From: an uncultured Verrucomicrobiota bacterium
GTDB taxonomy: Bacteria; Verrucomicrobiota; Kiritimatiellia; RFP12; UBA1067
DNA: 41,361 nucleotides
Direction of reading: 5' to 3'
Assembly (NCBI GenBank): GCA_946623785.1
Contig: CAMORM010000007.1
Span: 1-41,361, forward strand
A program made the position numbers and the translations under genes. This document shows, one piece after another, positions 7,663 to 31,002 of this stretch; positions within the stretch are counted from its first letter, which is position 1, and every line of letters starts with the position of its first letter. The notes beneath the pieces were generated by a model, which searched no databases, had not been told where the DNA came from, and worked only from the letters and a program-made list of their open reading frames with translations.

Positions 7663-7669
7663 AGGAGGT

Positions 7670-7678
7670 ATTATAGCA
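7670..7678 (-). promoter_or_regulatory. Extended -10 promoter of the beta-lactamase-family gene
   Basis: Minus strand TGCTATAAT, then ACCTCCT (7 nt), then the ATG at 7662. This implies a 0-2 nt leader. No convincing -35 box. The region up to 7811 is a 149-bp divergent gap shared with the plus-strand gene at 7812. Confidence 0.6.
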
Positions 7679-7772
7679 AAACCGTGCATGGCAGGATAGA
7701 CCAAAAGAGCCGTCCGCGCAGCTCCCGGGCTGCCAATGGCGTGAAAATATGGTGTAGATTAACCACGGCGAA

Positions 7773-11115: not shown

Positions 11116-11639
11116 TTGGTCTTTCCTTTCTCGGGTTCCTTGGCTGCGTCCTTGTCGGGTTCCTCGACCTTGCGGACGCGGACGCGCACGAGCTTGAGCA
11201 CGTCGGAATCGTTCAATCCAACCACTTTCCACGTAAACCGCCTTCCGGAATGCGTGATCGAGACATAGTCGCCGTCCGCATACGCCTTGCCGTTGATCAT
11301 CACGCTCGAACGGCGCGAGCCGTCCTTCCCCTTCACGATGAGCGGACTTCCAACGGCAAGCGTCTTGCGCGCCGCAATCCAGTGCTGCGACGTAGCGGAC
11401 TCGGCCATCATCGTTGCCGCGGCGTTCGCCGCGACGTCGGCGGCGGTAAGGGTGTCGTCGTCTCGCCCGGAGGCCGCAGGGATCGCGATCTTGACGCGGG
11501 GCTCTGCGGTGATGACAGCCCGTTCGCCCTCGTAGCCTATCGGCCAGAACGGATTGCGCACAGGAACGGGAGCGGGGCCTCCCTGGGCGAAAGCAGTGGC
11601 GCACGAAAGAGAAACCATCAATGCGGCGGCAAGCTTCAC
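11112..11639 (-). CDS. PilP/GspC-like periplasmic protein
   Basis: A 175-aa exported protein sitting in the pilP position, between the PilO-like and secretin genes. The signal peptide is VKLAAALMVSLSCATAFAQ, followed by RNPFWPIGY, a short motif often seen at the start of the mature part of such linker proteins. The C-terminal half (VMINGKAYADGDYVSITHSG) has the beta-rich 'homology region' look of GspC/PilP, which touches the secretin N0 domain. The tail is Lys/Glu-rich. I chose GTG at 11639: it overlaps the PilO-like stop as GTGA and has GGGAGG 6 nt upstream. The open frame extends to 11975 without signal-like sequence. Family assignment rests largely on position. Confidence 0.75.
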   Translation of the reverse strand: MKLAAALMVSLSCATAFAQGGPAPVPVRNPFWPIGYEGERAVITAEPRVKIAIPAASGRDDDTLTAADVAANAAATMMAESATSQHWIAARKTLAVGSPLIVKGKDGSRRSSVMINGKAYADGDYVSITHSGRRFTWKVVGLNDSDVLKLVRVRVRKVEEPDKDAAKEPEKGKTK

Positions 11640-12250
11640 TTTCTGCCTCCCTTCGGGGCCGGAACGGTGCTCTCGCCCATCACTGGCCATTCGAACACTA
11701 TGTCGCCGCGCTGCGTTTCCGGGTCCTGCTGCGCGTCCAGCCTGAACGACTGCATCGACACATACGGAAGGTCCTTCTCGACGCGCATGAGGAACGAGAC
11801 TATCTCCGCGTAGCTTCCGCGGCACGACACCTTGATCGGCCGGCGCGCGAAGAGCTGCTTCGGGAGCGGCTTCGGCACTGGAAGCGCGCGGACGGGAAGC
11901 TCGGAGTAGTCGATGTTCAGGAGCCCGGCCTCGGCCGCCAGGATGTCGAGCTTGGACTTCGCCCTCATCGCCCACGACTCCAGGAGCGGGGTGAGCATCG
12001 CCTCCTTGTACGGCGCCATCGCGGCGTCAAGCTTCTCAAGCCTGACCTTCACCTTGGCGGCCTCGCGCAGGTCGCGGTCTATCACCTGCTTCTTGGACCT
12101 CAGCTGCTCGAGCGTCTGCTTTGTCTTCTCGAGCGATTCGCCGCACGGCTGTACGGCGAACATGTACAGCACAACCGCCACGGCCGCGATGGCGAGCGTG
12201 ATCACGAACGAGCGCTGGGCGTTCGGGGCCATCTGGGAAATGGACTTCAT
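11636..12250 (-). CDS. PilO-like inner-membrane assembly protein
   Basis: A 204-aa bitopic protein: short cytoplasmic N-terminus, one membrane helix (SFVITLAIAAVAVVLYMFAV, about 14-33), a coiled coil (ESLEKTKQTLEQLRSKKQVIDRD, residues about 38-75), and a ferredoxin-like periplasmic domain with CRGSYAEIVSFLMRVEKDLPYV, the typical PilO motif region. PilO pairs with PilN and contacts PilP in the alignment complex. The start ATG at 12250 overlaps the PilN-like stop by 4 nt (ATGA). Confidence 0.83.
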   Translation of the reverse strand: MKSISQMAPNAQRSFVITLAIAAVAVVLYMFAVQPCGESLEKTKQTLEQLRSKKQVIDRDLREAAKVKVRLEKLDAAMAPYKEAMLTPLLESWAMRAKSKLDILAAEAGLLNIDYSELPVRALPVPKPLPKQLFARRPIKVSCRGSYAEIVSFLMRVEKDLPYVSMQSFRLDAQQDPETQRGDIVFEWPVMGESTVPAPKGGRK

Positions 12251-12993
12251 TTCTTCTTGTCCCCCTTCCCCTTGCCCGCCTCATCCCTGGAAGGCTCGGG
12301 CGGCTGCGGCTTTTCAAACACGCGAGGTTGGCACCTGTACTCGATGTCGAACAGCAGCAGACGCGAACCGTCCTCCGTTGTGCTGCCGTCCTGCCTGAAC
12401 GAATGGACCTTTGGGCTGGCGTCTGGCAGGCGCGGGTCCTTGACGACCACGAGGGTGTTCGTGAATTCCGGGGCCTCCAGCGACTCCATGAGCGAGAGCA
12501 CGGGCGTCTCCTTCGGGGTGCGCCCCATGATGCGCATCGACATGCGCTCCACCGTTCCGGTAGGCCCCCAGACGGGCTTGCCCTTCCCGCCAGGCGGCAT
12601 GAGGTTCTGCGGCGGCTGCTCGGGAATTTCTATCTTCGTGATCTGCACCCTGATCGGCATTACCTCGGCAAGGCGCGCAAACATCCCGCCGTAAAGGTTG
12701 CGCGCCGCCGAGTACATCTCGAGCTGGTCGAGCTGCGCCTGCTTTTCGCGCGCCTCCGTCATCTGCGCGAGGATGTTGGCGTGGGCCTTCTCCTTCCCCG
12801 CTATGTCGTCCTGGAGCGACGACACCTGCGTTTTCACCAGGAGCAGCTGCGTGGCGAGCATGGCCCACCACACGAGGCATCCAGCGCACGCAAGGAGAGC
12901 CATCACCGGCAGCATCACGCGGAGGCGCACTGGAGACGAGGAAAGCTTCTCCGTGTCACGCAGGAGATTCAGGTGAAGGCGAGAGCTCTTCAT
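12247..12993 (-). CDS. PilN-like inner-membrane assembly protein
   Basis: A 248-aa bitopic protein. The cytoplasmic start MKSSRLHLNLLRD resembles the PilN segment (INLLP-type) that binds PilM. A membrane helix follows (VMLPVMALLACAGCLVWWAML, about 26-47), then a coiled coil (VSSLQDDIAGKEKAHANILAQM). The periplasmic domain is larger than usual, with a Pro/Gly linker (PPQNLMPPGGKGKP) and a Lys-rich tail. Its start overlaps the PilM-like stop (ATGA). Confidence 0.8.
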   Translation of the reverse strand: MKSSRLHLNLLRDTEKLSSSPVRLRVMLPVMALLACAGCLVWWAMLATQLLLVKTQVSSLQDDIAGKEKAHANILAQMTEAREKQAQLDQLEMYSAARNLYGGMFARLAEVMPIRVQITKIEIPEQPPQNLMPPGGKGKPVWGPTGTVERMSMRIMGRTPKETPVLSLMESLEAPEFTNTLVVVKDPRLPDASPKVHSFRQDGSTTEDGSRLLLFDIEYRCQPRVFEKPQPPEPSRDEAGKGKGDKKK

Positions 12994-14183
12994 TCGCCCA
13001 CCTCCATCGCGGCCACCGCCGCGCCGATCGCGCCGAGGAACACCTGCGACTGGGCCTCGTCCATCTCCGGCACGCGGTTGCCCTTGGCGGGCATCTCAAG
13101 CCCCGCGAACGCCGAAGGCGTCACAAGCGGCACCTTGAGCGCGTCCTCCGACATCCTGCTCCAGTACTGCGCGCCGGACGGAAGCCCCAGCAGGAAGACC
13201 CTGTCGACATGGAGGGCGTGGCGGCGCGAAAGGTAGTCCATCGAAATCTCCAGCTGCTGGAGAATGGGCCGCGCGAACGGCTCCAGCACGGGCGTAGGGT
13301 CGATCAGGGACTCGTTGAGCACGGAGTCGACCATTTCCTCGTCGAGCCCCAGCCGCTTCTTCACGGTCTCGCGTATGAACAGGTGGCCTTGCGCCCCGGG
13401 GCACTCGCGCAGCAGCAGGAGCCGCCCCTCCTGGTACCCGGCGAAAAACACGGAGTCGCGCGTCATGAAGAGGACGAGCGCATTGCCGTCCGCCTCCACG
13501 AACTCGGGCTGGTTCAGCACGCTCGACAGGAGCGCGGCATTGTACGTCTGCACCGACACGGCCGTGGGGCGCTTTCCCTCGGGCAGGAGGCGCGAAAGCC
13601 AGAGGACCTGGTATTCGGGCATTCCGCTCTCCACGATGAAAGACTCGTCCGCAAGAGGCTGCACTACGAACCTCGTGCCGTTGTTTGAAGTCGCCACACC
13701 CGCCGGAGGCGCGGGAGCCTTCCCTGCAGAGCCGGCGACCGGAGCAGGCTCCTGCTTGACCGACCTGAGCCCGATCTTCTTCCTGCCAGGCTGCTCAAGC
13801 GCGGCCTTCGGCGCGGACATCGAGTTGGCAGTCAGCGCGTCCGGTGTCGTCTGCCGCAGGAAAACGTCCGCCGTGGACACGGCCAGCGCGGCGCCAGGCG
13901 CCTGGTATTCGACGGGCAGCGCCCATGTCGCCTGGTTGGAAAGCTCCTCCCACGACTGCGGGATCTCCCCCTCCGGAGGCTTGACGAAACCTGCCGCGTA
14001 TACGTGGAGCCGGCCCTTTTTCCTGGTCAGGCGGACAGCAGGGCATCCACGCGGATCGCCAGACCCGAACTCCACCCCCACGACGTCCGAAGGCCCGCGC
14101 CGACGTGAGCCGCCGCTTCCCCCACCGCCTCCAAACGGAAGCTTGACCTCGATCGTCTTTGTCTTTGTAAGCTGTATCTGCAT
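12990..14183 (-). CDS. PilM-like (GspL cytoplasmic-type) protein
   Basis: A 397-aa protein in the pilM position. The N-terminus has VKLPFGGGGGSGGSRRRG followed by VVGVEFGSGD, which may be the start of an actin-like fold. The middle is Ala/Pro-rich (about 135-165). The C-terminal half contains VLWLSRLLPEGKRPTAVSVQ, ALVLFMTRDSVFFAGYQEGRLLLL and RVFLLGLPSGAQYW, which suit the PilM/GspL ATP-binding fold. Similarity is weak and the call depends on operon order. The ATG at 14183 shares its A with the preceding TAA (TAATG), indicating coupled translation; an alternative GTG at 14195 would add four residues. Confidence 0.68.
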   Translation of the reverse strand: MQIQLTKTKTIEVKLPFGGGGGSGGSRRRGPSDVVGVEFGSGDPRGCPAVRLTRKKGRLHVYAAGFVKPPEGEIPQSWEELSNQATWALPVEYQAPGAALAVSTADVFLRQTTPDALTANSMSAPKAALEQPGRKKIGLRSVKQEPAPVAGSAGKAPAPPAGVATSNNGTRFVVQPLADESFIVESGMPEYQVLWLSRLLPEGKRPTAVSVQTYNAALLSSVLNQPEFVEADGNALVLFMTRDSVFFAGYQEGRLLLLRECPGAQGHLFIRETVKKRLGLDEEMVDSVLNESLIDPTPVLEPFARPILQQLEISMDYLSRRHALHVDRVFLLGLPSGAQYWSRMSEDALKVPLVTPSAFAGLEMPAKGNRVPEMDEAQSQVFLGAIGAAVAAMEVGE

Positions 14184-14557
14184 TACTTGTCCCACGACGC
14201 CTTTGGAGGCGCCTTGTCACGCCATTCCTGAAGCGAAATCATGTTGCCCGCGCTCTCGCGTCCCGCAAGATACGCCTCCGCCACGTATTCGCGCTTCTCC
14301 TTCATCTGCGCAAGCAGGCTCCTTATCTCGATTACGGCGTCATAGCACATGTCGAGTATCTGAGCAGCCGTCTCGCGGTCGGTGCTGTCCATCCTGAGCA
14401 GCTCTATGCTCGAGAGCAGGACAGTGGCGGGCTGTCCAAGTGCATGGCAAAAGCCGGCAAGCGACTCCATGACTACCTTGGATCGCTCAACCTGCATCTC
14501 CGCAAAGGCAAGCCGCTTCGCTATGACCTCGGGACTCTCTTTCTCTTCGTTGTCCAT
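14183..14557 (-). CDS. Orphan DHp (HisKA-like) helical protein
   Basis: A 124-aa, almost entirely helical protein, first gene of the PilMNOP/secretin operon. Residues 30-50 (SLAGFCHALGQPATVLLSSI) match the H-box pattern of histidine-kinase dimerisation domains (H-x-L-x-Q-P), with His38 in the phospho-acceptor position. A second long helix (residues about 60-90) completes a DHp-type hairpin. There is no sensor domain before it and no ATP-binding domain after it. It could be a phosphotransfer or scaffold protein that links signalling to pilus assembly, but a chance resemblance of a helical hairpin is possible. No strong Shine-Dalgarno; a weak -10 (TAAAAT, 14591-14596) overlaps the stop codon of the upstream gene. 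Confidence 0.65.
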   Translation of the reverse strand: MDNEEKESPEVIAKRLAFAEMQVERSKVVMESLAGFCHALGQPATVLLSSIELLRMDSTDRETAAQILDMCYDAVIEIRSLLAQMKEKREYVAEAYLAGRESAGNMISLQEWRDKAPPKASWDK

Positions 14558-14593: not shown

Positions 14594-15499
14594 TTAGCGA
14601 ATATCAGCCGAAGGTTCAAGCGCGGAAATGCGCCTTGCGATGTTCTTCGAAACAAGGCTTTCCGAGTCAATCTTCCTCGCCTCGGCAAGATAGCCCGAAA
14701 GCTCCTTCGCGCCGCCGCGTTTCGCCGCAATGGCGGAAAGATAGTCGAGTATGTTCAAAAACACCTCCGCATCGTGCCCCGAAAGCACAGAAACGTCGGA
14801 GCCGCACGAGCTGAGGCCAAGGCGCCTCGCATTCGCGAAGGCCGTTTCCGAAGCGGCCATGTTCCCCTTCCCGCCCCGGTAGAGAAAGCGCCCCTCCGCA
14901 AGCGCAATCTCCATGCTGCGCGGGTTCGCCGCTTTTGCATCTGCGAGAATGGAAGCGGCAAGTTTCTCGTTTTTGATAATGCGGTCAGCGATGTACAGGG
15001 CGGTTGTCCACGCCTCCACGTTGTGCGGATCGGCCTTAACCGACGCCCAGAACCACGGCATGAGCTCGACAGCCTTCTCGCCCTCGAGGTGGCGCTCCAC
15101 CTCGGGCGCGCGGATGCGCTCGTTAATCCATGCCCACGGATCCAGTCCGCCGTCCGAATCGTGGTCGTGCCCTTCGTGGTCATGGCCGTCGTGGTCATGG
15201 CCGGGACCTCCGTGGGCATGTTCGTGTCCGTGGTGTTCGTGGCCGCCGTGATCAAGGTCGTGTTCGGCGCTGCCGTCGTAATGGTGGCGGCAAGAGCATT
15301 CCATGTCAACGCCGCCGTGGAAATAGCTGTCCGCCTGGCGGAACATGGCGTCGCTGATGGCAGCCTTCGCGCCGCCGAACGCCACGGAGAGCGCGTCGCC
15401 TCCACGCGCCAGCTGCGGCATCTTGCCGGAAGGCGCAGCGCCGATTGCGAACGCCGCGCCTGCGGCGCATAGCGCGGAAAAGGGAAAGAGTCCCTTCAT
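14594..15499 (-). CDS. Exported protein with His-rich insert and TPR-like region
   Basis: A 301-aa protein, last of the seven-gene ABC operon. An N-terminal hydrophobic segment (LFPFSALCAAGAAFAIGAA) is followed by FGGAKAAISDAMFRQADSYFHGG, then residues 68-113 with CSC and 16 histidines alternating with Asp, Glu and Gly. After that comes WFWASVKADPHNVEAWTTALYIADRI and further helical pairs, as in TPR-containing envelope proteins of PVC bacteria (recalled, not searched). The His-rich stretch can be expected to bind Zn, Ni, Cu or similar. I chose ATG 15499 because it overlaps the permease stop (TGATG) and begins the signal; the longer open frame is not coding-like. Role: possibly a metal-binding partner of the exporter. 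Confidence 0.75.
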   Translation of the reverse strand: MKGLFPFSALCAAGAAFAIGAAPSGKMPQLARGGDALSVAFGGAKAAISDAMFRQADSYFHGGVDMECSCRHHYDGSAEHDLDHGGHEHHGHEHAHGGPGHDHDGHDHEGHDHDSDGGLDPWAWINERIRAPEVERHLEGEKAVELMPWFWASVKADPHNVEAWTTALYIADRIIKNEKLAASILADAKAANPRSMEIALAEGRFLYRGGKGNMAASETAFANARRLGLSSCGSDVSVLSGHDAEVFLNILDYLSAIAAKRGGAKELSGYLAEARKIDSESLVSKNIARRISALEPSADIR

Positions 15500-16281
15500 C
15501 AGAGCTTCTTCCTCTTGAGCACCGCGGCAGAAAGCGACAGCAGCGCGACCACGTAGAACGCGGCGTATCCGAGCACCGCCAGGAAGACCGTCCATTCGAC
15601 GCCGCCCCAGCCGTGGACTACGCGCTGGCGCATGTCGAAGAACTCGGCGTGAGGCGCCACGGCGTACGCCGCCCTCACGAGCCACGAAAGCGGAGCCGAC
15701 ACGGTGTCGGCATACGCGGGCAGGCGGCGTCCGAAGAAGAACATCGCCACAAGCGCGATCGACGAAAGCGTGAGGTTGGCGGACGGCGTTACGAGCAGGG
15801 AGCCGAGCAGCGACACCGCCACCGCGAGCGCGGAGAACGCGAGGTGCAGGACGAACGCCTGGGCGAAGTCCGCGCCGTAGCCGAACCCGCCGTGCACAAG
15901 CGACGCAACTGCGAACATCGCGTAGAAGAACGCGAGTGCCGACCATGAAGCTGCGACCGCGCCGGCGAACTTCCCCACGAGGAGCGCGCCCCGCGATATC
16001 GGCTTCGCGAGAAGCGTGTACACCGTGCGGCTCTCGAACTCGGGCGGGAACAGGCGAGCCCCCGTGCCAAGCGAGATGAAAAGCGAATACGCCCACACGA
16101 GAAGCAGCGCCGCCTCGTCGAGGTAGCGCGTCGCGCCCTTCGTGCCGAACGGCGCCGACATCGACAGAGGCACCATCAGCGCGAGCGCGAGGACGAACAT
16201 GGCGAAGATGTCGTTGCGTCGCCACAGCTCTGTGAACGAAAGCTTCACGAGCGCGCGGACCTGCCGGAGGAAAGTCTTCAT
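15499..16281 (-). CDS. ABC-2 type exporter permease (NosY-like)
   Basis: A 260-aa integral membrane protein with about six helices. The N-terminal MKTFLRQVRALVKLSFTELW with FPPEFESRTVYTLLAKPISR is the cytoplasmic coupling region of ABC-2 permeases (compare NosY). The start ATG at 16281 overlaps the ATPase stop (ATGA), and its own stop overlaps the His-rich gene (TGATG). It should pair with the ATPase at 16278-17009. The substrate is unknown. Confidence 0.86.
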   Translation of the reverse strand: MKTFLRQVRALVKLSFTELWRRNDIFAMFVLALALMVPLSMSAPFGTKGATRYLDEAALLLVWAYSLFISLGTGARLFPPEFESRTVYTLLAKPISRGALLVGKFAGAVAASWSALAFFYAMFAVASLVHGGFGYGADFAQAFVLHLAFSALAVAVSLLGSLLVTPSANLTLSSIALVAMFFFGRRLPAYADTVSAPLSWLVRAAYAVAPHAEFFDMRQRVVHGWGGVEWTVFLAVLGYAAFYVVALLSLSAAVLKRKKL

Positions 16282-17009
16282 TCCGCATCCTCCAGCTTCT
16301 TCAGGAACAGGCGCTCGAGGTTTGTGGCGCCGTCTCCGGCAATGTCCTTCACCGGCCCCTGGTAAACGCACCTGCCCTTCTTCATTATCGCGACCTTGTC
16401 GCACAGCAGCTCCGTCTCGCCGAGCTCGTGCGAGGAGAAGAAGATTGCCTTGCCCTTCCCGCGCAGCGAGCGCATCAGCTCGCGGAAATGGATGCGGGCA
16501 AGCGGGTCGAGCCCGGTGAACGGCTCGTCGAGGACGAGCAGGTCGGGGTCGTTTAGGAGCGCTTGCGCGATGCCTGCGCGCTGGAGCATGCCCTTGGAGT
16601 ACGTCCTGAGCGGTCGTTTCGCCGCCTCGGCGAGCCCCACGGCCTCAAGCAGCTCGCCCGTGCGGCGTTTCACCACGTTTGGGTCGAGGCCGCATATCCC
16701 GCCGTAGAACGAGAGCAGCTCACGCGCGTCGAGGTAGGGGTAGTAGTACGCTATCTCAGGCATATAGCCGATGCGCGCGCGGACGGAGGCCCGCGCGGGG
16801 TCTCCGCCGAACACCGAGACCTCGCCCTCCGTCGGGGGGATCAACCCCAGCATCATCTTTATCGTGGTCGTCTTCCCCGCGCCATTTGTGCCGAGGAAGC
16901 CCATGACCTCGCCCGGAGCAAGCGACAGCGAAAGCCCGTCCACCGCCTTCACGGAGCCAAAAGTCCGAGAGACGCAGCAAATGTCCACCGCACTGGCGGA
17001 GCCGATCAT
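16278..17009 (-). CDS. ABC exporter ATPase (CcmA/NosF-like)
   Basis: A 243-aa nucleotide-binding subunit. Walker A is GTNGAGKTTT (about residues 39-48), the signature is YSKGMLQRAGIAQALL, Walker B is LLVLDEPFTGLD with the normal catalytic Glu, and the H-loop is SSHELGE. The ATG at 17009 has a strong AGGAGG about 6 nt upstream; the open frame continues 76 codons further but through another gene. Overlaps on both sides are 4 nt, so it is translated as part of the operon and pairs with the permease at 15499. Confidence 0.9.
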   Translation of the reverse strand: MIGSASAVDICCVSRTFGSVKAVDGLSLSLAPGEVMGFLGTNGAGKTTTIKMMLGLIPPTEGEVSVFGGDPARASVRARIGYMPEIAYYYPYLDARELLSFYGGICGLDPNVVKRRTGELLEAVGLAEAAKRPLRTYSKGMLQRAGIAQALLNDPDLLVLDEPFTGLDPLARIHFRELMRSLRGKGKAIFFSSHELGETELLCDKVAIMKKGRCVYQGPVKDIAGDGATNLERLFLKKLEDAE

Positions 17010-17665
17010 TCCCCCTCCTTTGCAAACTTCAGGATGTCCGCGGCCACAAGCGGGTTGCGGAAGGTAAATGCGCATCGCTCGCTGGACGAGCCGACGCCTG
17101 CCTCGAAGACGATTCCGCCCGGCTGGACCGTAAACGACCGGAGCCTGTCGAACGGCACGCCGAAGTCCAGGTCCTTGCCCGCGAACGCAACGCGGCGGTT
17201 TGTGAAATAGCAGTGTGTCCGCTGCGCTATGCGGCACTTTCTCCTGAACCCGGGGAACGCAACGTCGCTCGGACGTCCCACCGGGCGGGCGGGCTGCCCC
17301 TCTGCGATGGCGCCACGAGGCGACGCAGCGTCGATGTACAGCGTCCCCTTTTCGTGGAAGTGAGCGAGCTCCCCCGGCTCAAGCGCCAGGCGCGCGTTCC
17401 TTGCGGGCCGCTCGCGTACGGTCGAGAGCCCGCCCTCCGCAAGCCACTGCCTGTAGCGCTCTTCGTTCTGGAGGCGGCGGCGGCGAATCCTGAAGCGCAC
17501 CACGACCATTGGTATCAGCAGCCAGAACAGCCCGAAGAGAATTGCTATCATGCCGAGCGCGTGCATGAACCACGGCTTGTTCAGGTTGTCCAGGTCCTGG
17601 TATATGAGCCAGAACATCCCCGCGAGGAACACAAACGCAATCAGCTTTCTCAACGCGTACAGCAA
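17006..17665 (-). CDS. Two-helix membrane protein with a PH-like soluble domain
   Basis: A 219-aa protein between two ABC modules. Two membrane helices (LIAFVFLAGMFWLIYQDL and HALGMIAILFGLFWLLIPMVVV) are followed by a basic linker (RFRIRRRRLQ) and a cytoplasmic domain of alternating beta strands: THCYFTNRRVAF, LDFGVPFDRLRSFTVQPGGIVFEAG. The strand pattern 'T-N-R-R-(hydrophobic) ... (hydrophobic)-P-F-x-x-(hydrophobic)-x-S' resembles the bacterial PH (bPH) fold, which is an inference. I prefer the TTG start at 17665, which has AAAGGGG about 8 nt upstream; a TTG at 17698 overlaps the DUF4340 stop and has no Shine-Dalgarno. The end overlaps the next start (ATGA). Confidence 0.66.
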   Translation of the reverse strand: MLYALRKLIAFVFLAGMFWLIYQDLDNLNKPWFMHALGMIAILFGLFWLLIPMVVVRFRIRRRRLQNEERYRQWLAEGGLSTVRERPARNARLALEPGELAHFHEKGTLYIDAASPRGAIAEGQPARPVGRPSDVAFPGFRRKCRIAQRTHCYFTNRRVAFAGKDLDFGVPFDRLRSFTVQPGGIVFEAGVGSSSERCAFTFRNPLVAADILKFAKEGE

Positions 17666-17687
17666 TTCGCATTCCCCTTTCCCGGCT

Positions 17688-19304
17688 TCAAATCCCAAAA
17701 GCCGCCAGGGCCGATGGCGACAGCGTGAACACCGTTGCGGCGCCCGAGAGCATCACGTACCGCGAACCGTCCGCAAGAGTCGCGCCGACTATCAGGTTCC
17801 TGCGTATGGAGTCCGACGACTTCAGGTCTATCGCCACGGTCCGGTAGGGCTTCGCGAGGCCGAACCTCTCGAGCTCCTCGGGCGATGCCGAGAGGTTCAC
17901 CACCGACACGGCCACGAGGTTCGCAAGCGCCTCCGTGACCGCGCCAGGCAGCGGCTCGCCGGCTACGGCCGGCCAGATCACCGTGGGCGAATCCTGCCCG
18001 CTGACCGTGACCTTCACGATATCATGCGCCGCGAGCGAGAGCATGGTGCGCGTGTGGAAGGAAGCCAGCGTCTCCGCGCTAGGCAGGGAAGCGGGAAGCG
18101 CTGCGGAGACCCCGCCTATCTTCACCGTCACCGCGTCTGCCGGGACAGACGACGTCGCCGACGAGTCGAGGGAGAGCATCCGCTGTATGAACGCCGTGAC
18201 CCTCTCCTGGTTCGCCGGCGCAACGACAGGCGACTCGAGCGACCACGTGTCCCCCTCGCGGCGGAGGATGCACACGCCGTCCGACGAAGACACGGTAAAC
18301 GAGTCCACCTGCGACTCGGCCACAGGGAAGAGCCGCGTGTCGCGGAACGATTCAGGCGGCACAGCGCATGCAGCCCTCAGGGACGCGGGGACCTTTACGA
18401 CAGCTCCGCCGTTCTGCACAAGCGCATATACGGAATCGCCCTCCACCGAATCGCCAAACACTATCTGCATCGACTCGCCTGGCCCGTACACGGTCACGAG
18501 GAGGCTCTTGTCCGGCTCTATCTTGTAGGTGGCAAGCTTGGAAACAGGGATCGGGGACCCAGTGTCTACATACGCCTGTATCTCCGCGCCGGCCAGCGCG
18601 CCGACAAGCGCCGTCACAGCCGAAGGAAGCGCCGGCGCGGAGTTGCTCGACTTCAGCTGCCAAGACCCCGCCGTGCGCGTGAGCTTCACGAACGCGGCGT
18701 CCGGCACGCGCACGTCGAGCGCAGTGACAAGCGACGGCTCGAACGGAAGCAAGCGCAGCGGACGGAACCCGTCAACCGACTTTGGCACGGCCGCGGCCAC
18801 GGCTGCCGGCAGGGTGAAGACGCTCATCGCCCCCTGCGCCATGACGTACACCTCCGAGCCGGAAGACGTCTTGTACCCGAGCGACACACCCACCCGCTTC
18901 CCCTTGCCGGACGACACAAGGCCTATCGACACCTCTGGCGGGGACAGCCCGAAATCGGCCGGCGCGAGGTTGTTCTTCCGAAGCTCGTCGAACGTAAGCG
19001 CGTCCCCCACCTGCGAAAAAGCAAGGGAGTCGACAAGCTTCATAACCGCAGACTGGTCGGCCGCGGCTTTCCCCTCAGGAAGCCTGAGGAACCAGCGGGC
19101 CGGCGAAGACGCGCGTACGACGCTCACGGTGTATCCCGGCGCGGAAATCTCAACCTCCGTGACGTCGGAGGGATCGACGTCGGCAAGCGTCGTGCGGACG
19201 ACCTGCGCCGATACCGCCGCAGAGCGTATGTTGAGCCCCCACAACGCAGCGGAGACGGCGAATATGCCGATGAGTAGCCTCAATATGACGCCGCGGTTGC
19301 TCAT
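17688..19304 (-). CDS. DUF4340-type envelope protein
   Basis: A 538-aa protein with an N-terminal anchor (GVILRLLIGIFAVSAALWGLNI) and a long extracytoplasmic part made of repeated beta-rich modules, of the type YTVSVVRASSPARWFLRLPEGKAAADQSAVMKLVDSLAF and later copies (SWQLKSSNSAPALPSAVTALVGALA, TWSLESPVVAPANQERVTAFI). This module pattern is that of DUF4340 proteins, which usually lie next to Gld-like ABC exporters. The start ATG at 19304 overlaps the GldFG-fusion stop (ATGA), in line with a shared complex. Function is not established. Confidence 0.84.
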   Translation of the reverse strand: MSNRGVILRLLIGIFAVSAALWGLNIRSAAVSAQVVRTTLADVDPSDVTEVEISAPGYTVSVVRASSPARWFLRLPEGKAAADQSAVMKLVDSLAFSQVGDALTFDELRKNNLAPADFGLSPPEVSIGLVSSGKGKRVGVSLGYKTSSGSEVYVMAQGAMSVFTLPAAVAAAVPKSVDGFRPLRLLPFEPSLVTALDVRVPDAAFVKLTRTAGSWQLKSSNSAPALPSAVTALVGALAGAEIQAYVDTGSPIPVSKLATYKIEPDKSLLVTVYGPGESMQIVFGDSVEGDSVYALVQNGGAVVKVPASLRAACAVPPESFRDTRLFPVAESQVDSFTVSSSDGVCILRREGDTWSLESPVVAPANQERVTAFIQRMLSLDSSATSSVPADAVTVKIGGVSAALPASLPSAETLASFHTRTMLSLAAHDIVKVTVSGQDSPTVIWPAVAGEPLPGAVTEALANLVAVSVVNLSASPEELERFGLAKPYRTVAIDLKSSDSIRRNLIVGATLADGSRYVMLSGAATVFTLSPSALAAFGI

Positions 19305-21346
19305 GGACGGTTAAGCCGCCTCCTTCCGGCGAAGGCGAAGACAATGAACAGGAAAAGCGGATAGCCGACGGCCGAAGCGACGGCGAACGGAACATACGAC
19401 TCGCGCGCCATCCCGAGGTGAAGCTGCAGCGGCGAGGTGCTTGTCGCAGAGGCGAAGTCGACTCCCGCAAGCCACTCCACGGCGTTGAGGAAGAAGTCGC
19501 GGTTCGCCGCACCCTTCTCGCCAAGCGCGCCGTTCATCACGAACGAGTCGTTCCCGACGACGACGATGCGCGTCGGGCGGAGGGCGATGTCGTTCGCCGT
19601 CACGCCGCGCTGCAGCGCAGCCGCCACGACCTCGTTCGTGCGCACGGAAAGAAGCGGCGTGAACACTATGCGGTCGGCGGCCGAGGCGCCTTCCGACGAG
19701 GTGGCGGAGGGACGCACGAGAAGCGGCTTGTCAAGCACCACCGATCCGTCGACAAGCGGCTTCGTCACGGCGTGGCCGCCGGAAGGCGAAAGGACAGTGT
19801 CCTCGCCGGACGACGTACGCACCGGCACGGCGGTTTCGTCGGAAACGACCGCGCCCCACGGCTCAAGGCCGTTCTCTGCGCGGTGCGCCAGGTAGAGAAG
19901 CCGACCGCCATGCCGCAGCCAGCTGTCCACAAGCTCCCTTTCCACGCGCGGGAGCGGGTTGCGCGGACCTGCCATCACCATCACCGAGCAGTCGCTTGGA
20001 ACGGCCGGGAGCGTCGCAAGGTCAAGCCTGGACACGGTGTATCCGTTGCGCACAAGCTCGCGCGCGATGTCGGAGAAGCCGCTCACCGGATCGTACGACT
20101 CTGGATCCGCTTCGCCGTGGCCGGCGATGAAGCATACGTGGCGCTCCCGCCGCGGGACAAGCAGTCTGTGGAGCGCCGCGGCCAGCGCGTCCTCCCCTCC
20201 GCTCGCCGCGGCGACCTCGCGCCGCCGGCCGCTGTATAGGACGATCGAGCCCTCCTTCACCCCCTCGCGCGACAGGCGGGACGATCGGGCGAGGTCCCAG
20301 CGCGGGTTCACGTACTCCACCCGCACCTCCGCACCCGCCGCGGAGCGCGCGGCGTTTTGCATGACACGCATGAGGCGGTCGGCAGCGCGGAACGCCGGGG
20401 TCTTTTGCGGCACGTAGCACACCGCACGCAGATCGCCGAGCGTGTTCCGCTTGAGAAGCTCGTACAGTCGAGGGGACACAGCCTCGCCCGACTCCGGGCG
20501 GGCGAGTTCGACGGACAGGTCGAGCCGCCGCGCAAGGGCGGTCGCGAGAACGGAGAACACGGCGGCAAGGATTACCGCCGTGAAGGAAGACAGCTTCACT
20601 GCATTGCAGCCGCGGTGCCTGAAGCGCAGGGACGCGACCTGCTTGGACGCGAAGAGAAGCGCGAACCCCGTCCAGATGACGCACGAAATCGCGGCAGACG
20701 TGGAGACCAGGCCCGTGGCCATGTCATACACGTGCGCCTCGGGGAGGTACGTGGCCACGGCGGACCTGTACGCGGGGAGCCACGCGATGGCGGCGGAATG
20801 CAGGGCGCGCGGAATGCCCTCGCACACGAGGACTGAGGCGGTGAAGGCGATTGCCGGGTGCGTGGTGCAGGCCGAGCTCGCCGTGCCCACCGCGCACCAG
20901 AGCGCGCCCTGAAGCGCCAGCGCGATGAATGCGAGCGAATAGCTTCCGCTCGCCGGACCGGGCTTGTAGTGGAAGAACAGCGAGAGCATCGCGGGGACGG
21001 CGAGATATAACGCAATGGACAGGAGCAGCCCGGCATACGAGCCCACGAACTTCCCAGCCACCATCTCGCGCTCGCGCACGGCAGTGGACATCAGCAGCTC
21101 CAGCGCGCCGCTGCGCCGCTCCTCGGCGATTGTGCGCATCGTGAGCGCCGCAGCCAGAACCGGGAGGAAGGGAGCCGCGGCAAGCACCCATATCGCGCTC
21201 GCCGGCAACATCCCGCCCTCGCCCGTTCGCATGTGCCACGCGAAACTGGACGCGGACGCCGCGAGGAACAGCGCAACCACCGCCCCGCCGAAGGAGGTCG
21301 CAAAGGACGAAAACGTCCGCATTGCCAGCAGTCGAACGGCTCTCAT
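19301..21346 (-). CDS. Gld-type ABC permease fused to a GldG-like domain
   Basis: A 681-aa fusion. Residues about 1-240 form an ABC-2 permease (GldF-like) with six helices and the coupling segment TIAEERRSGALELLMSTAVRE. A seventh helix (about 253-272) leads into an extracytoplasmic GldG/ABC_transp_aux-like domain (HVCFIAGHGEADPES, VMVMAGPRNPLPRVERELV, LVDSWLRHGGRLLYLAHR) to about 640, and a C-terminal membrane helix near PLFLFIVFAFAGRRR ends the chain. In gliding Bacteroidota GldF and GldG are separate proteins. The ATG at 21346 shares its A with the ATPase stop (TGATG), so I prefer it to the ATG at 21388. Confidence 0.86.
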   Translation of the reverse strand: MRAVRLLAMRTFSSFATSFGGAVVALFLAASASSFAWHMRTGEGGMLPASAIWVLAAAPFLPVLAAALTMRTIAEERRSGALELLMSTAVREREMVAGKFVGSYAGLLLSIALYLAVPAMLSLFFHYKPGPASGSYSLAFIALALQGALWCAVGTASSACTTHPAIAFTASVLVCEGIPRALHSAAIAWLPAYRSAVATYLPEAHVYDMATGLVSTSAAISCVIWTGFALLFASKQVASLRFRHRGCNAVKLSSFTAVILAAVFSVLATALARRLDLSVELARPESGEAVSPRLYELLKRNTLGDLRAVCYVPQKTPAFRAADRLMRVMQNAARSAAGAEVRVEYVNPRWDLARSSRLSREGVKEGSIVLYSGRRREVAAASGGEDALAAALHRLLVPRRERHVCFIAGHGEADPESYDPVSGFSDIARELVRNGYTVSRLDLATLPAVPSDCSVMVMAGPRNPLPRVERELVDSWLRHGGRLLYLAHRAENGLEPWGAVVSDETAVPVRTSSGEDTVLSPSGGHAVTKPLVDGSVVLDKPLLVRPSATSSEGASAADRIVFTPLLSVRTNEVVAAALQRGVTANDIALRPTRIVVVGNDSFVMNGALGEKGAANRDFFLNAVEWLAGVDFASATSTSPLQLHLGMARESYVPFAVASAVGYPLFLFIVFAFAGRRRLNRP

Positions 21347-21963
21347 CACTCGAACTCCATAAAGCGCGTCACGAACTTCGACAGGCACTCGCGTTCGTGC
21401 CCGGTCACGACCACCGTCGACGTCGCGGAAACGGTCTTGAGCGCCGCGACCACCGCATTGCGCGACTCCTCGTCTATGCCGGCTACCACGTCGTCGAGAA
21501 GGAGCAGCCTCGGGCGGAGCAGTATCGCGTCCGCAAGCGCAACCCGCTTGCGCTGCCCCTGGGACAGGAATCGTATCGAGGTCTTCATCAGGTCGCCGAG
21601 GTTGCAGTCGTCGCAGGCCTCGCGAACGCGGTAGCGGATCCTGATGATCTTCTCGCCCTTGAGCCGGGCGCGGTGGTAGAGGAACTCCTTCACCGTCATG
21701 TCGTCGTAGAGCGGAAAGGCGTCGCCCATGTATCCGAGCTGCCTGCGGTAGCGGAGGGGGGAGTCCGAAGAGTCCACGCCATCAACGACAATCCGCCCGC
21801 GCCGGGGGAGGTAGATTCCCGCAAGGATCTTCACGAGAGTCGTCTTGCCCACGCCGTTCGGGCCCCACAGGGCCACAATCTCACCCGTGGCGACGTCGAA
21901 CGTGAGGTCGTCGATAACGTCCTTGCCAGAATAGGCGAACGAAAGATGTGATACCGAAAGCAA
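21346..21963 (-). CDS. ABC exporter ATPase (GldA-like) with altered Walker B
   Basis: A 205-aa nucleotide-binding subunit and first gene of the seven-gene operon. Walker A is GPNGVGKTT (34-42), the signature is LSQGQ (133-137), and the H-loop is His189. Walker B is LLLLDD (153-158): the catalytic Glu is replaced by Asp158, which usually lowers ATPase activity strongly. The start is TTG at 21963, preceded by GGCGGAAAAA; no in-frame ATG or GTG is available upstream. An extended -10 promoter at 22038-22067 overlaps the priA stop codon and gives a leader of about 68 nt. Partner permease: the GldFG fusion. Confidence 0.87.
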   Translation of the reverse strand: MLSVSHLSFAYSGKDVIDDLTFDVATGEIVALWGPNGVGKTTLVKILAGIYLPRRGRIVVDGVDSSDSPLRYRRQLGYMGDAFPLYDDMTVKEFLYHRARLKGEKIIRIRYRVREACDDCNLGDLMKTSIRFLSQGQRKRVALADAILLRPRLLLLDDVVAGIDEESRNAVVAALKTVSATSTVVVTGHERECLSKFVTRFMEFE

Positions 21964-22037: not shown

Positions 22038-22067
22038 ATTATAGCAAGTTCACGGCGTCCATATCAA
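22038..22067 (-). promoter_or_regulatory. Promoter of the double-ABC operon
   Basis: Minus strand -35 TTGATA (22062-22067), 18-bp spacer, extended -10 TGC TATAAT (22038-22046). The -10 overlaps the end of priA. Predicted start near 22031, leader about 68 nt. Confidence 0.7.
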
Positions 22068-24243
22068 GTGCGAGACGGACCGTATTTGGAACGGGACGCA
22101 CCCCGGAGATCCACCGATAGGCACCGACTATGCTCCGCGGGGACTTCGACCTAAGCACGATCTGGTACCTGAACCACCCTTCCGCCTTCTCAAGCACGGC
22201 CGGCACCGGATCCCCCACAAGCAGCCGCGAAGCGCCGGAAAGCTTCGCGGCGTAGGACTGGAGCGACTTCGCGTACAGCGCGCACCATGCCGACGCAAGC
22301 GGCTCCTCCTTCGACTTGAAGTTCACCGTGGCAAGGCGCCAGAACGGCGGGAGCATCGCGGCCTCGCGCTCTGCAAGCTCCACCTCGGCAAACGGGACGT
22401 ATCCCGCATCCGACGCCGCGGCACGCACGGCCGACGCGTCCGGGTTGAACGTCTGCAGGTACACCTCGCCCGGGAGCTCGGCCCGGCCCGCGCGTCCAGA
22501 CACCTGCGCCAGAAGCTGGTACGTCCTTTCCGACGCCCTCGGATCCGGCAAGTTTAGAGAGGAATCGGCATTGAGCACTCCGACTAGCGTGACGTTCGGG
22601 AAGTCGAGCCCCTTCGCTATCATCTGCGTGCCGATCAGGATGTCGATGGCGTTCGCGCGGAAGCGCGAGAGTATCTCGTCGTGCGAATGGCGGCGCGACA
22701 CTGAATCGGCGTCCATGCGCTGGATGCGCGCCCGCGGGAAGCACTTCACAAGGGCCTCCTCGGCGCGCTGCGTGCCGATTCCTCGGCAGCGGAACGACGG
22801 CGCCCCGCACTCGGGGCACTTGTCGGGAGGCCGCTTCCAGCCTCCGCAGACATGGCACCTGAGGCAGTCGTCCACGCGGTGGTAGGTATACGCCACCGAA
22901 CAGTCGGGGCACTCCTCCACGTAGCCGCACTCCGGGCACGCGTAGGAACTCGAGTAGCCCCGCCTGTTGAGGAAGAGTATCGTCTGCTCCCCGCGGTCGA
23001 GCCGCGACCGTATCGCGTCCATGAGCGGCGCGGAAAATATCGGCGCGCATCCCGAGCGGGCCTTCTCCTCCTCCATGTCCACGATCCGCACCTCGGGCAT
23101 CGGATGGTTCATCGCGCGGTGCGGCATCGAGGCCAGCACATATTTCCCTCGCTTTGCGTTCAGCCAGCTCTCAAGCGACGGCGTCGCCGAGCCGAGCACC
23201 GCCTTCGCACCCTCGATCCCCGCCCGCACCACGGCCATGTCGCGCGCGCTGTATCGCGGCGACTCCTCCTGCTTGTACGAGGAGTCGTGCTCCTCGTCCA
23301 CGACTATCAGCCCGAGATTCCGCACCGGCGCGAACACGGCGCTTCGCGGCCCAACAACCACCCGCGCCTCGCCGCGTCGTATGCGGTGCCATTCGTCGTA
23401 CCGCTCGCCGTCCGAAAGCGCCGAATGGAGCACGGCCACGAGCGGCCCGAAGCGCGACGCAAAGCGCTGGACCGTCTGGGGCGTAAGCGATATCTCCGGG
23501 ACGAGCACGATTGCGCCGCGTCCTGCCTCGAGTTCGCGGGCGATGGCCTGGAGGTAGACCTCCGTCTTGCCGCTGCCTGTGACGCCGTGCAGAAGAACGG
23601 GGCGCGGGTCCTCCGACGCAATCGCCGCGAGCGCCGCGGCCTGCTCGGCGTCGAGCGTCTTCGGGCGCGAGCGGACGAGGGCCTTTCCTCCGAGAGGATC
23701 GCGGCGCGAGACCTTCCGGGAAATCTGCACGCACCCCTTCGCGGCCAGCGCCTTGATGGTGGCCGGAGAGGTCGAGAACTCGCCGCACAGCTGGCTCAGC
23801 CATCCGCCGTCCACGCGCACGATATCTGCGAGAAGCACGCTCTGACGCGGAGTGAGGCCAGAAGCCGCGGCGTCCTTCACGGGCTCAACGAAGAGAAGCT
23901 CCTTGGGCCGCGCGTTAGGCTTGAGCACCGCCGCGGGAACGGCCGCGCGAAGGACCTGCTCCACTGGGGCCGCGTAGTACTTTGCTGCCCACTTGACGAG
24001 TTTGAGCAGCTCTACGGTGAAGAATGGCGACTCGTCCTCTATCGCCATCACCGGCTTGACCGCGAACTTCGCCCCCGGCACGGAATCGCCCTCGGACAGC
24101 TTCATGCTGAAGCCGCGCGCGATCCGTCCAGAAAAGGGAACGCGGAGAAGCTGACCTGTTTTCAGCTTCCCCGCGAGTTCGACCGGCACCGAGTAGGTGA
24201 AAAGCCGGTCGAGGGCGAGATCTATCGCTACCGATACGAGCAA
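22039..24243 (-). CDS. priA: Primosomal protein N' (PriA helicase)
   Basis: Replication-restart helicase, 734 aa, normal length. N-terminal DNA-binding domain (VAIDLALDRLFTYSVP); Walker A GVTGSGKTEVYL (about 220); DEEH box (IVVDEEHDSSYKQ); a zinc-binding insert with paired cysteines (CPECGYVEECPDCSVAY, then CLRCHVCGGWKRPPDKCPECGA); helicase motifs IGTQMIAKGLDFPNVTLVGVLNAD and QVSGRAGR; C-terminal domain. The start is TTG at 24243, one base after the pseudopilin stop, so the two genes are probably co-transcribed and PriA translation may be coupled or low. Confidence 0.95.
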   Translation of the reverse strand: MLVSVAIDLALDRLFTYSVPVELAGKLKTGQLLRVPFSGRIARGFSMKLSEGDSVPGAKFAVKPVMAIEDESPFFTVELLKLVKWAAKYYAAPVEQVLRAAVPAAVLKPNARPKELLFVEPVKDAAASGLTPRQSVLLADIVRVDGGWLSQLCGEFSTSPATIKALAAKGCVQISRKVSRRDPLGGKALVRSRPKTLDAEQAAALAAIASEDPRPVLLHGVTGSGKTEVYLQAIARELEAGRGAIVLVPEISLTPQTVQRFASRFGPLVAVLHSALSDGERYDEWHRIRRGEARVVVGPRSAVFAPVRNLGLIVVDEEHDSSYKQEESPRYSARDMAVVRAGIEGAKAVLGSATPSLESWLNAKRGKYVLASMPHRAMNHPMPEVRIVDMEEEKARSGCAPIFSAPLMDAIRSRLDRGEQTILFLNRRGYSSSYACPECGYVEECPDCSVAYTYHRVDDCLRCHVCGGWKRPPDKCPECGAPSFRCRGIGTQRAEEALVKCFPRARIQRMDADSVSRRHSHDEILSRFRANAIDILIGTQMIAKGLDFPNVTLVGVLNADSSLNLPDPRASERTYQLLAQVSGRAGRAELPGEVYLQTFNPDASAVRAAASDAGYVPFAEVELAEREAAMLPPFWRLATVNFKSKEEPLASAWCALYAKSLQSYAAKLSGASRLLVGDPVPAVLEKAEGWFRYQIVLRSKSPRSIVGAYRWISGVRPVPNTVRLALDMDAVNLL

Positions 24244-24244
24244 C

Positions 24245-25027
24245 TTACTGCGGAGCCTGCTGGCCGTCCGGGGCGAGATAGGTGAACTCGGCAGTGTCCT
24301 CTCCTTCGTCGGAGATCTCGAACGCCTGCTTGTTGTAGATGATCTGGTAGGTGCAGTAACGGCCGCCTTCGCCGCTGATGACGACGCCGCCCTTGGTCAC
24401 GAGCACGAAGCCCTTGTTGGAGAACGGAGTGTCGAAGTTCGCGCCGTTGGCAGTTCCAAGGGAGACCTTGGTGTTCTTCGTGCCGTCGTACTTCTTGAGA
24501 AGGTCCGACGCCTTCATGTTGCGCGTCAAGAGAACGGGGATGATGTCGTCCAGCTCGTCCTGAACGTTCGCAGCCACGGTCCAGGTCACGTTGTCCTTCT
24601 CGAGCTGGGTCGCACCGCCCTTCGGAGGCTCGACGCCGTTTCCGTAGAGCGTCTTGAACGCATCCTTGGACACGAACGGCTCCCACTTCTTGGTGTCGTT
24701 CATGTTCTGCATGTCGAACAGCTCGGTGAAGTACTGGGCGGAGTTGCTGCACGGAATCTCGGCGATGTCCTTCTGCTCGCCGCCCGAAGAACCGCTGGAA
24801 TCGGGGTTCGTGCGCGGCCAGACATTGCCGAGGCCAAGCTTCTGGCGCTCCGTGTTCGCGTCGAAGATGGCGGTGTAGAGCGTACGCCCGCGGACGCCGA
24901 CTGCCGTCATCGCGGACTTGAACTGGACCGTTGAAACGGCCGGGAAGAGCACCGACATCAAGACACCGAGAATGCCGAGCACCACAAGAAGCTCGACGAG
25001 CGTGAAACCTTTCTTACCAGCTTTCAT
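24245..25027 (-). CDS. Type II secretion / pilin-like protein (pseudopilin)
   Basis: A 260-aa prepilin. The type III signal MKAGKKG is followed by FTLVELLVVLGILGVLMSVL, with the Gly before the cleavage site and Glu at position +5. The rest is a globular C-terminal domain of about 220 aa, larger than a usual GspG major pseudopilin and more like the many 'DUF1559-type' or GspH/PulG-like pilins of PVC bacteria (inference). It would be processed by the peptidase at 40779 and assembled by the PilB/GspE ATPase. The ATG at 25027 has AAAGGAG about 10 nt upstream, and a promoter at 25065-25093. Confidence 0.88.
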   Translation of the reverse strand: MKAGKKGFTLVELLVVLGILGVLMSVLFPAVSTVQFKSAMTAVGVRGRTLYTAIFDANTERQKLGLGNVWPRTNPDSSGSSGGEQKDIAEIPCSNSAQYFTELFDMQNMNDTKKWEPFVSKDAFKTLYGNGVEPPKGGATQLEKDNVTWTVAANVQDELDDIIPVLLTRNMKASDLLKKYDGTKNTKVSLGTANGANFDTPFSNKGFVLVTKGGVVISGEGGRYCTYQIIYNKQAFEISDEGEDTAEFTYLAPDGQQAPQ

Positions 25028-27275: not shown

Positions 27276-28586
27276 TCACTCGATCGGCTTGACGCTCTTC
27301 ACGTCATCGGAGTCGATGACTTCAACAAGTCCGGGACGAGTCTCGATGCGGTAGCTGCCAAGCGCCGTCTGCTCCAGGAGCTGCCCGCGCTTCACGGTTC
27401 CGTTCACGGTGGTGATCTCGATGTCGGGCAGGAAGATGCGCTTCAGCTTGACGCGCAGCTCGGTCGTCTTGCTCGGCGCGACCTCGAAGCGCTTGCTCGC
27501 CTCCTCGTAGCCCTTCATCTTGACGGTGACCAGGTGCTCTCCGTCGAGAAGCTCCTCGACCGCGAACGGCAGCGACGTCTGTGCGCCTTCCTTGCTGCTC
27601 TTCGTAATGCCGCGCTTCTTCCTGTCTACCCATATCTCCGCCCCGACAGGAGTTGTCGTGATCTCGAGTCGCCCGAGAACGCTCTTGAGGCGGAACTCCT
27701 CGGTGACGCTCCCGCCGTTCGGCACTTCCACGGTGCGCGACATGGGCGCATAGCCCGGAAGCTCCGCGCGGACGCGATGAGTACCGCCCTCCACGGACAC
27801 GTTCACGGGCGAACGGCCCTGGAACTGGTCGTCCACGTACACGCGCGCCCTCTCGGGAATCGACACCACGGAGAGGCGCGTCGGACGGCCCTTCATCCGC
27901 ACCGACAGGTTTTGCTTGTCCCCGGCCGTGATCTTGACCTCGCGCGTCAGGTCCTCGTATCCCTCCTTCTTGAGGACGATCGTCGCGATGCCGCGCGGCA
28001 CGCGCTCGACGCGCACGGGGGAATTGCCCTTGCTCACGCCGTTTACGATGACCTCGGCACCTACCGGGTCCGACACGATGTCGAGGATGCCCGAATCCAG
28101 GGTGAGCGTTTCGTCGACCACCTTCGGTCGGCGTCCGTCGAGAGTGACGTTGACGGTCTTCTTGCCGTATCCGTTCTGCGAAAGCGTAAGCTGGTACGAA
28201 TTCCCGGCGGAAAACGTCGTTATGAGCAGCGGCGTGACGCCGAGGGAGAGCCCGTTGTACGAGACATCGCATCCCGCCGGGTCCGTGCGCACGAGCAGCA
28301 GGCCCTTCTCGGGACGAAGCTCGAAGTTCTTCTGGGTGTACGCGCCCTTCTGGAGGACGACAAACTCGTCGTAGGTCCTGTATCCAGGGGACGAAACGGT
28401 CACAAGCCTCTTGCCGGGCTTGACGTCCAGGAGCGTGAGCGGCGTCACGCCGCGCACTTCGCCGTCAATCGCGACCGTGGCCTCGCTGGGCTGGGACGTG
28501 ATGTCGAGCCTTATGAACTCCTGTTCCGCGGCAAATGCGGCGAACGCCGCAAGAAGCGCGAAAAGCGATGCAATTGTCTTCTTCAT
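27276..28586 (-). CDS. Exported multi-PEGA-domain protein
   Basis: A 436-aa protein with a signal peptide (MKKTIASLFALLAAFAAFA) and five tandem PEGA-type beta domains. Their openings are ITSQPSEATVAIDGEVRGVTPL, VRTDPAGCDVSYNGLSLGVTPL, IVSDPVGAEVIVNGVSKGNSPV, VVSIPERARVYVDDQFQGRSPV and ITTTPVGAEIWVDRKKRGI, about 70 residues apart. A short C-terminal module (GTVKRGQLLEQTALGSYRI) ends the protein. PEGA domains are common in envelope proteins and S-layer-related architectures; the molecular role is unknown. It starts 19 bp after the FHA gene with GGAGG 8 nt before the ATG. Confidence 0.87.
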   Translation of the reverse strand: MKKTIASLFALLAAFAAFAAEQEFIRLDITSQPSEATVAIDGEVRGVTPLTLLDVKPGKRLVTVSSPGYRTYDEFVVLQKGAYTQKNFELRPEKGLLLVRTDPAGCDVSYNGLSLGVTPLLITTFSAGNSYQLTLSQNGYGKKTVNVTLDGRRPKVVDETLTLDSGILDIVSDPVGAEVIVNGVSKGNSPVRVERVPRGIATIVLKKEGYEDLTREVKITAGDKQNLSVRMKGRPTRLSVVSIPERARVYVDDQFQGRSPVNVSVEGGTHRVRAELPGYAPMSRTVEVPNGGSVTEEFRLKSVLGRLEITTTPVGAEIWVDRKKRGITKSSKEGAQTSLPFAVEELLDGEHLVTVKMKGYEEASKRFEVAPSKTTELRVKLKRIFLPDIEITTVNGTVKRGQLLEQTALGSYRIETRPGLVEVIDSDDVKSVKPIE

Positions 28587-28605
28587 TCCGCTGTCCTCCG
28601 CAAAA

Positions 28606-29964: not shown

Positions 29965-30015
29965 TTATTTTTCCTGGGTTTCTTTTTCGCTGTTAAGTCC
30001 GCCGGCCGGAGCCCC

Positions 30016-30936: not shown

Positions 30937-31002
30937 ATTCGTCTCCCCGGCTCATGCGGGCCGCGAGGCCCGAATCCGCCCGTGGGCTCCTTTCGGACGC
31001 AG

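Follow-up and report, generated by a model that had tools for sequence, protein, structure and literature searches.

Gene content of the locus

The DNA analysed here (41,361 nucleotides at its full length, hereafter referred to as the window) originates from a draft genome of 2.79 Mb in 257 contigs, which is 78% complete and 4.6% contaminated. Seven densely packed open reading frames, all on the minus strand, lie between positions 14594 and 21963. We designate them A to G in the direction of transcription and assign them to module 1 (A-B-C) and module 2 (E-F-G), with D as a loose companion of the latter:

22038-22067, minus strand: promoter-like site before A (TTGATA-18-TATAAT, matching the consensus at 11 of 12 positions and overlapping the 3' end of priA)
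21346-21963, minus strand: A, ABC ATPase of module 1 (TTG start; PF00005, 3.6e-28)
19301-21346, minus strand: B, GldF-type ABC-2 permease fused to a GldG-type auxiliary domain, module 1 (PF12679, 35.7 bits, and PF09822, 43.8 bits, both above cut-off)
17688-19304, minus strand: C, DUF4340 membrane-anchored protein, module 1 (PF14238, 132.2 bits, cut-off 25)
17006-17665, minus strand: D, two-helix membrane protein with a predicted PH-like domain, loose companion of module 2 (TTG start likely)
16278-17009, minus strand: E, ABC ATPase of module 2 (PF00005, 2.5e-28)
15499-16281, minus strand: F, ABC-2 permease of module 2 (PF12730, ABC2_membrane_4, 31.1 bits, and PF12679, ABC2_membrane_2, 27.8 bits)
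14594-15499, minus strand: G, exported His-rich TPR protein of module 2 (TPR matches in orthologues; TPR model)

The gene calls of an initial annotation of this DNA hold, with Pfam assigning A and E to ABC_tran, C to DUF4340 and B and F to permease families, and so does the operon-like packing it had described. A and B share 1 nt (TGATG), B and C 4 nt (ATGA), D/E and E/F overlap by 4 nt each and F/G by 1 nt, and the one gap, of 22 nt, lies between C and D. The single promoter proposed before A is real as a pattern; three promoter-like sites scoring at least 9 of 12 were seen between 13900 and 22500, compared to 0.7 expected. Both ABC modules are arranged head to tail and may share a transcript now.

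Separation of the two modules

The initial annotation had regarded the seven genes as one undescribed machine and had named the gene order in relatives as a test. Our comparison covered Kiritimatiellae and other Verrucomicrobiota, many of them from rumen or gut according to their record titles. Two sets were used: 58 relatives (59 genomes including that of the window) and 78 distinct E-F-G loci from the best 80 of 104 relatives, obtained by a search of contigs; several of these loci are the same records as loci from the 58 relatives, hence the two sets overlap and are not independent.

The gene order contradicts a single machine. In all 27 of the 58 relatives having both halves (by strong F matches), B/C and F reside on separate contigs; in draft genomes this does not prove distance, a part of the argument that the fetched flanks supply. 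G-like proteins occur in 26 of the 59 genomes and F in 29, once as a weak match. G is flanked by F, E or both in each of the 26 fetched G loci, and neither B nor C was found in them. Among 50 E-F-G loci with 5 kb or more of sequence before E (best 80 of 104 relatives), B or C was near a single one, as a GldF-like fragment approximately 8 kb away, and D, F, G or a close E were near none of 28 A-B-C loci. E-F-G itself is complete in 68 of the 70 loci with enough flank (of the 78 from the best 80 of 104 relatives), and the triad occurs in Kiritimatiellae, other Verrucomicrobiota and Omnitrophota. Module 1 is widespread in the relatives and module 2 is optional: C is present in 56 of the 59 genomes, B-like stretches in all 59 (some being general permease matches only), and A-B-C is kept in nearly all relatives, with or without E-F-G. 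A-B-C and D/E-F-G are very likely two independent modules and not one conserved machine.

How the two may have come to adjoin each other in the window is suggested by the genes upstream of A:

22039-24243, minus strand: priA, upstream neighbour of A (PF17764 and helicase domains)
24245-25027, minus strand: prepilin-like protein upstream of priA (PF07963 N_methyl, 5.1e-08)

The order in the window is prepilin, priA, A-B-C, D, E-F-G and H, the latter being a small protein described below. Two loci of relatives, L160 and L165, show the order prepilin, priA, MlaE-like protein (named by eye), Mla-type ATPase, MlaD, one gene of no known kind, E-F-G, GspE-type ATPase and H, and their Mla-type module (5428-9270 in L160) thus takes the place held by A-B-C in the window. 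The slot before E-F-G hence takes different ABC modules across lineages, which argues against a fixed seven-gene machine as well as against a simple assembly error. The gene order suggests that two transporters became neighbours in the lineage of the window. A joint function of all seven genes, for which the unbroken packing with junctions of 1-22 nt and the single promoter-like site would speak, is very improbable given the separation of the halves, the occurrence of A-B-C where E-F-G is absent and the exchange of the module in this slot.

It is similarly far-fetched that C and D were merely joined during assembly, the genome being metagenome-derived, and that the modules are not neighbours at all. 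The draft state of the genome, a foreign contig (C69) in the same bin and the restriction of this junction to the window among the genomes examined are consistent with such a join; however, composition is even across the window, the frame of prepilin, priA, slot, E-F-G and H recurs in L160 and L165, and A-B-C fits this known slot with a clean 22-nt spacer. Contig C69 (G000:C69, identical to locus L048) carries a second D-E-F-G copy, which we rejected as a paralogue: it shares 98.4% and 96.0% identity with contigs C94 and C130 of G035, a genome of another genus, and is thus contamination. An apparent F-G fusion gene in L138 was also discarded, since the near-identical L163 has two distinct genes and bases towards the end of F are missing from L138. 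Long 'fused' reading frames of 435-564 aa in the frame of G (window, L149, L151) are out-of-frame read-up through F.

Module 1

Based on its domains, A-B-C appears to be a Gld-type complex of an ATPase, a permease fused to a periplasmic GldG-like domain and a DUF4340 protein. The Pfam matches of B comprise ABC2_membrane_2/_3, ABC_transp_aux (PF09822; cut-off 34.7) and DUF4350; its counterpart is one long reading frame in several relatives of the same family and two in others, and C comes after B in relatives. A sequence search of the PDB with B gave no match, and the matches of C, mostly antibody chains, were taken as chance. A-B-C shares the type of ATPase, permease and GldG-type auxiliary domain with the GldA-GldF-GldG system of gliding Bacteroidota, but scores far below the NCBIfam equivalog cut-offs (GldA 128 bits, cut-off 402.6; GldF, TIGR03518, 55.9 bits, cut-off 288.5; GldG 18.5 bits, cut-off 389.85), and the top match of A, PQQ_ABC_ATP with 132 bits, is also far under its cut-off. 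Further differences are the fusion of the GldF and GldG parts and the DUF4340 partner. Module 1 probably fulfils a general task in the cell envelope. It merits attention because it is nearly universal in the relatives and because Verrucomicrobium spinosum has a DUF4340 protein, VSP_RS39600, whose gene is reported as essential (PMC12283558).

Proteins of module 2

The initial annotation had divided the genes into a Gld-like half and a NosFY-like half, the latter with a partner, G, of metal-binding appearance. This division is borne out; the inclusion of D as a fixed part of the second half is not, as D is present in only 15 of 78 E-F-G loci (best 80 of 104 relatives). No Pfam family matched D above cut-off. 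It has two hydrophobic stretches, and its structural model (pLDDT 86) displays two long helices and a PH-like domain. Among the fold matches listed, all within residues 60-219, PH, PTB, FERM or Ran-binding domains prevail (Z 8.5-10.6; rmsd mostly 2-3.5 Å over 81-118 residues), and Foldseek returned no match at E up to 0.001. According to the model, D carries a PH fold. It was found in 5 of 59 genomes (one weak match included) and, within the family, in 27 of 114 (weak matches only in a few). Of 20 fetched D loci, 13 contain E and F as well, with D sometimes located after G or 1.4 kb off. D is a loose companion of E-F-G and no fixed part of it.

In a phmmer search of the PDB, NosF (7o0y) was the best bacterial match of E (2e-50), although similar ATPases exist in other exporters and E also resembles ABCA-type lipid exporters. 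F has a mean column identity of 65% in alignment A1 of 23 sequences, its PF12679 match is only just above cut-off, and its profile found no sequence match in the PDB at E up to 1. For the G protein of the window, no Pfam family was above cut-off, but TPR_14 matched 17 of 29 orthologues and the model consists of a TPR solenoid with a low-confidence linker. This linker contains 16 His within 51 residues (3 to 23 His in the orthologues, median 8). H61 and H137 are conserved in all 29 orthologues, C68 and H103 in 27 of 29. These conserved His and Cys residues, together with the His-rich linker, probably bind metal. Foldseek found no match for G at E up to 0.001; fold matches of the model include the type IV pilus TPR proteins PilF and PilW (Z 14.0 and 13.6), at a level with many unrelated TPR proteins. 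By its model, G would share the TPR fold with PilF/PilW, which are outer-membrane lipoproteins, whereas G has no clear lipobox as judged by eye.

These features bring up the main rival to a pilus-related function, namely a metal exporter or maturation transporter of the NosFY type, in which E and F move metal-bound or sulfur-containing cargo, G acts as periplasmic metal chaperone and the pilus genes nearby are incidental. The nos genes are arranged in the order nosF-nosY-nosL, which the order ATPase, permease and putative chaperone in E-F-G recalls; the NosF-like ATPase, the small ABC-2 permease and the metal-binding-looking periplasmic partner likewise resemble NosDFYL, the maturation system of nitrous oxide reductase. 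In contrast, the profile of F has no PDB sequence match at E up to 1, G belongs to the TPR proteins and showed no likeness to NosL or NosD in the searches made, and E-F-G co-occurs with PilM. Those window genes that were scanned with Pfam included none recognisable as NosD, NosL or N2O reductase, and the neighbours inspected included no recognisable NosD-like or metal-enzyme gene. We consider a NosFY-type function unlikely, but G and the likeness of E to NosF keep it live.

Genomic neighbourhood of E-F-G

The half of the locus formed by E-F-G adjoins a type IV pilus/type II secretion locus, a point that was absent from the initial annotation:

14183-14557, minus strand: H, orphan HisKA-like (DHp) protein downstream of G (PF00512, E 0.013, under cut-off)
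12990-14195, minus strand: presumed PilM/GspL-like protein, named from position and family features (no Pfam or NCBIfam match)
12247-12993, minus strand: protein which we take to be PilN-like from its features and its position between the PilM-like and PilO/GspM-like proteins (no Pfam match)
11636-12250, minus strand: PilO/GspM-like protein (PF04612, 21.4 bits, and PF04350, 19.1 bits, both under cut-off)
8698-11604, minus strand: secretin (PF00263, 9.3e-30)
2623-4314, minus strand: GspE/PilB-type motor ATPase (PF00437, 1e-138, and MshEN)

A serine hydrolase of the beta-lactamase family (6403-7704) and a C39-like peptidase (4382-5713) are encoded between the secretin and the GspE-type ATPase. 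On the other side of the seven genes, positions 27276-30955 hold genes for a PEGA-repeat and an FHA-domain protein along with one that matches T2SSF above cut-off (30055-30435); this group may be a further part of the secretion or pilus locus. H is a stand-alone protein of 124 aa without a kinase domain and is far better conserved than its neighbours (e.g. L160 14336-14701; G001:C148:43923-44276): it is 72-83% identical in relatives, where it is found beside E-F-G or PilM. It is co-directional in the window and on the opposite strand in several relatives.

Genes of the PilM, PilN, PilO, secretin and GspE types were detected in 13, 12, 12, 12 and 6 of 78 E-F-G loci (best 80 of 104 relatives), compared to none of 28 A-B-C loci; these counts used proteins of the window as queries and are weak for distant taxa. 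With a profile built from the loci themselves, a prepilin gene on the same strand was found at most 3 kb before E (or D) in 15 of the 56 loci with sufficient flank (18 loci without the flank condition). The corresponding figures are 0 of 56 on the downstream side, 4 of 47 for the upstream interval of 3-6 kb and 5 of 34 for that of 6-9 kb (all from the best 80 of 104 relatives), and 0 of 18 before A. A prepilin in these first 3 kb or a core pilus gene in the locus marks 28 of the 78 loci from the best 80 of 104 relatives; the other 50 show neither in the stretch examined, many flanks being short. Prepilins directly before E also occur in distant Verrucomicrobiota, in which F is only 31-38% identical to that of the window; in other relatives the pilin lies on the upstream side, in many cases behind an NtrC-type regulator (as named by eye). 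Within groups, the adjacent pilins are alike beyond the common N-terminus, related members share C-terminal parts, and the family has a conserved Cys-containing C-terminal motif. Prepilin-type genes are not rare, however, since the genome of the window alone has 26 N_methyl matches.

F and PilM also co-occur: over 58 relatives, both were found in 22, F alone in 5, PilM alone in 2 and neither in 29 (Fisher 3e-9, a value that ignores the tree and is inflated by shared ancestry). Counted by genus, the numbers are 16, 1, 0 and 13, and the association holds in both genome-size halves. The link to pili is not strict, as seen from the five relatives with F but without PilM, from G001, which is rated 100% complete and has PilM, D and H while F and G are absent, and from loci with other neighbours, i.e. 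LptD in 7 E-F-G loci and HisB/RdgB in others. In two Pedosphaera loci, a further ABC ATPase gene follows G (L182, 3865-4365; L187, 11717-12337), and the ATPase before F was not detected in L187.

The LptD loci (L155, L156, L158, L159, L164, L166 and L172; names assigned by eye) carry E-F-G directly or nearly downstream of LptD, and in most of them it comes after PBP2-FtsW-RNaseG. Together with the resemblance of E to lipid exporters of the ABCA type, this is consistent with a role of E-F-G in handling a component of the outer membrane or envelope (lipid, LPS or glycan), with the pilus as one of several envelope contexts. We regard such a role as rather improbable: the LptD context is confined to one group of loci, whereas the pilin context covers both Kiritimatiellae and distant Verrucomicrobiota.

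A possible pilus-linked exporter

From neighbourhood and co-occurrence, a link of E-F-G to pili appears fairly likely, and its specific mechanism is rated lower than this link. Our preferred reading, to which we assign a probability of roughly 0.5, combines the two-module result with the proposal that E-F-G, as an exporter of three parts, serves a machine of the type IV pilus type in a manner resembling PilGHI of Myxococcus xanthus. With regard to substrate, direction and all other biochemistry, we infer that E would hydrolyse ATP to drive F, which would move a substrate across the inner membrane or insert it there, the most likely substrate being the pilin or an assembly factor. In the periplasm, to which it is either exported or anchored, G would then receive or position this substrate via its TPR arm, with its conserved His and Cys residues and His-rich linker probably binding metal.

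In M. xanthus, a single operon comprises pilA, pilG, pilH and pilI (PMC3546991), and PilGHI (MXAN_5782-5780; TC 3.A.1.144.5 as cited in PMC3924187) is described as required for pilus assembly and PilA export, with its members listed as receptor, ATPase and membrane parts (PMC3924187; PMC3724824). By layout rather than by tested sequence, PilGHI would be the best parallel to E-F-G. Both consist of an ATPase, an ABC-2 permease and an extracytoplasmic accessory protein in one operon (for E-F-G in 68 of 70 loci). PilGHI is encoded beside a type IV pilin and close to PilMNO/secretin genes; for E-F-G, a prepilin shortly upstream or a core pilus gene is seen in 28 of 78 loci and neither in the other 50 (all counts from the best 80 of 104 relatives). 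They differ in gene order, which is ATPase, permease, accessory protein in E-F-G and accessory protein, ATPase, permease in PilGHI, in the nature of the accessory protein, a His-rich TPR protein in E-F-G, and in the companion D; the metal role proposed for E-F-G is not part of the PilGHI model. Matches to PilGHI were reported from almost all bacteria studied in PMC6060248, and the mere presence of such ABC genes therefore says little.

A more daring version would see in E-F-G(-D) a metal-gated exporter of pilins, so far undescribed, that Verrucomicrobiota and Omnitrophota have built around a PilGHI-like pump; this we consider quite doubtful. Equally speculative is the role that G would have in it, namely that of a His-rich TPR chaperone which senses or carries metal and hands the pilin to the base of the pilus. 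In the literature searched, with subscription literature outside the scope, we found no account of the E-F-G triad or of pilus-linked ABC exporters in Kiritimatiellae.

The comparison replaces one candidate new machine by two testable ones. If the triad is indeed a pilus exporter, ABC pumps encoded beside pilins would be widespread among Verrucomicrobiota, and their long-debated contribution to pili could be approached by comparison.
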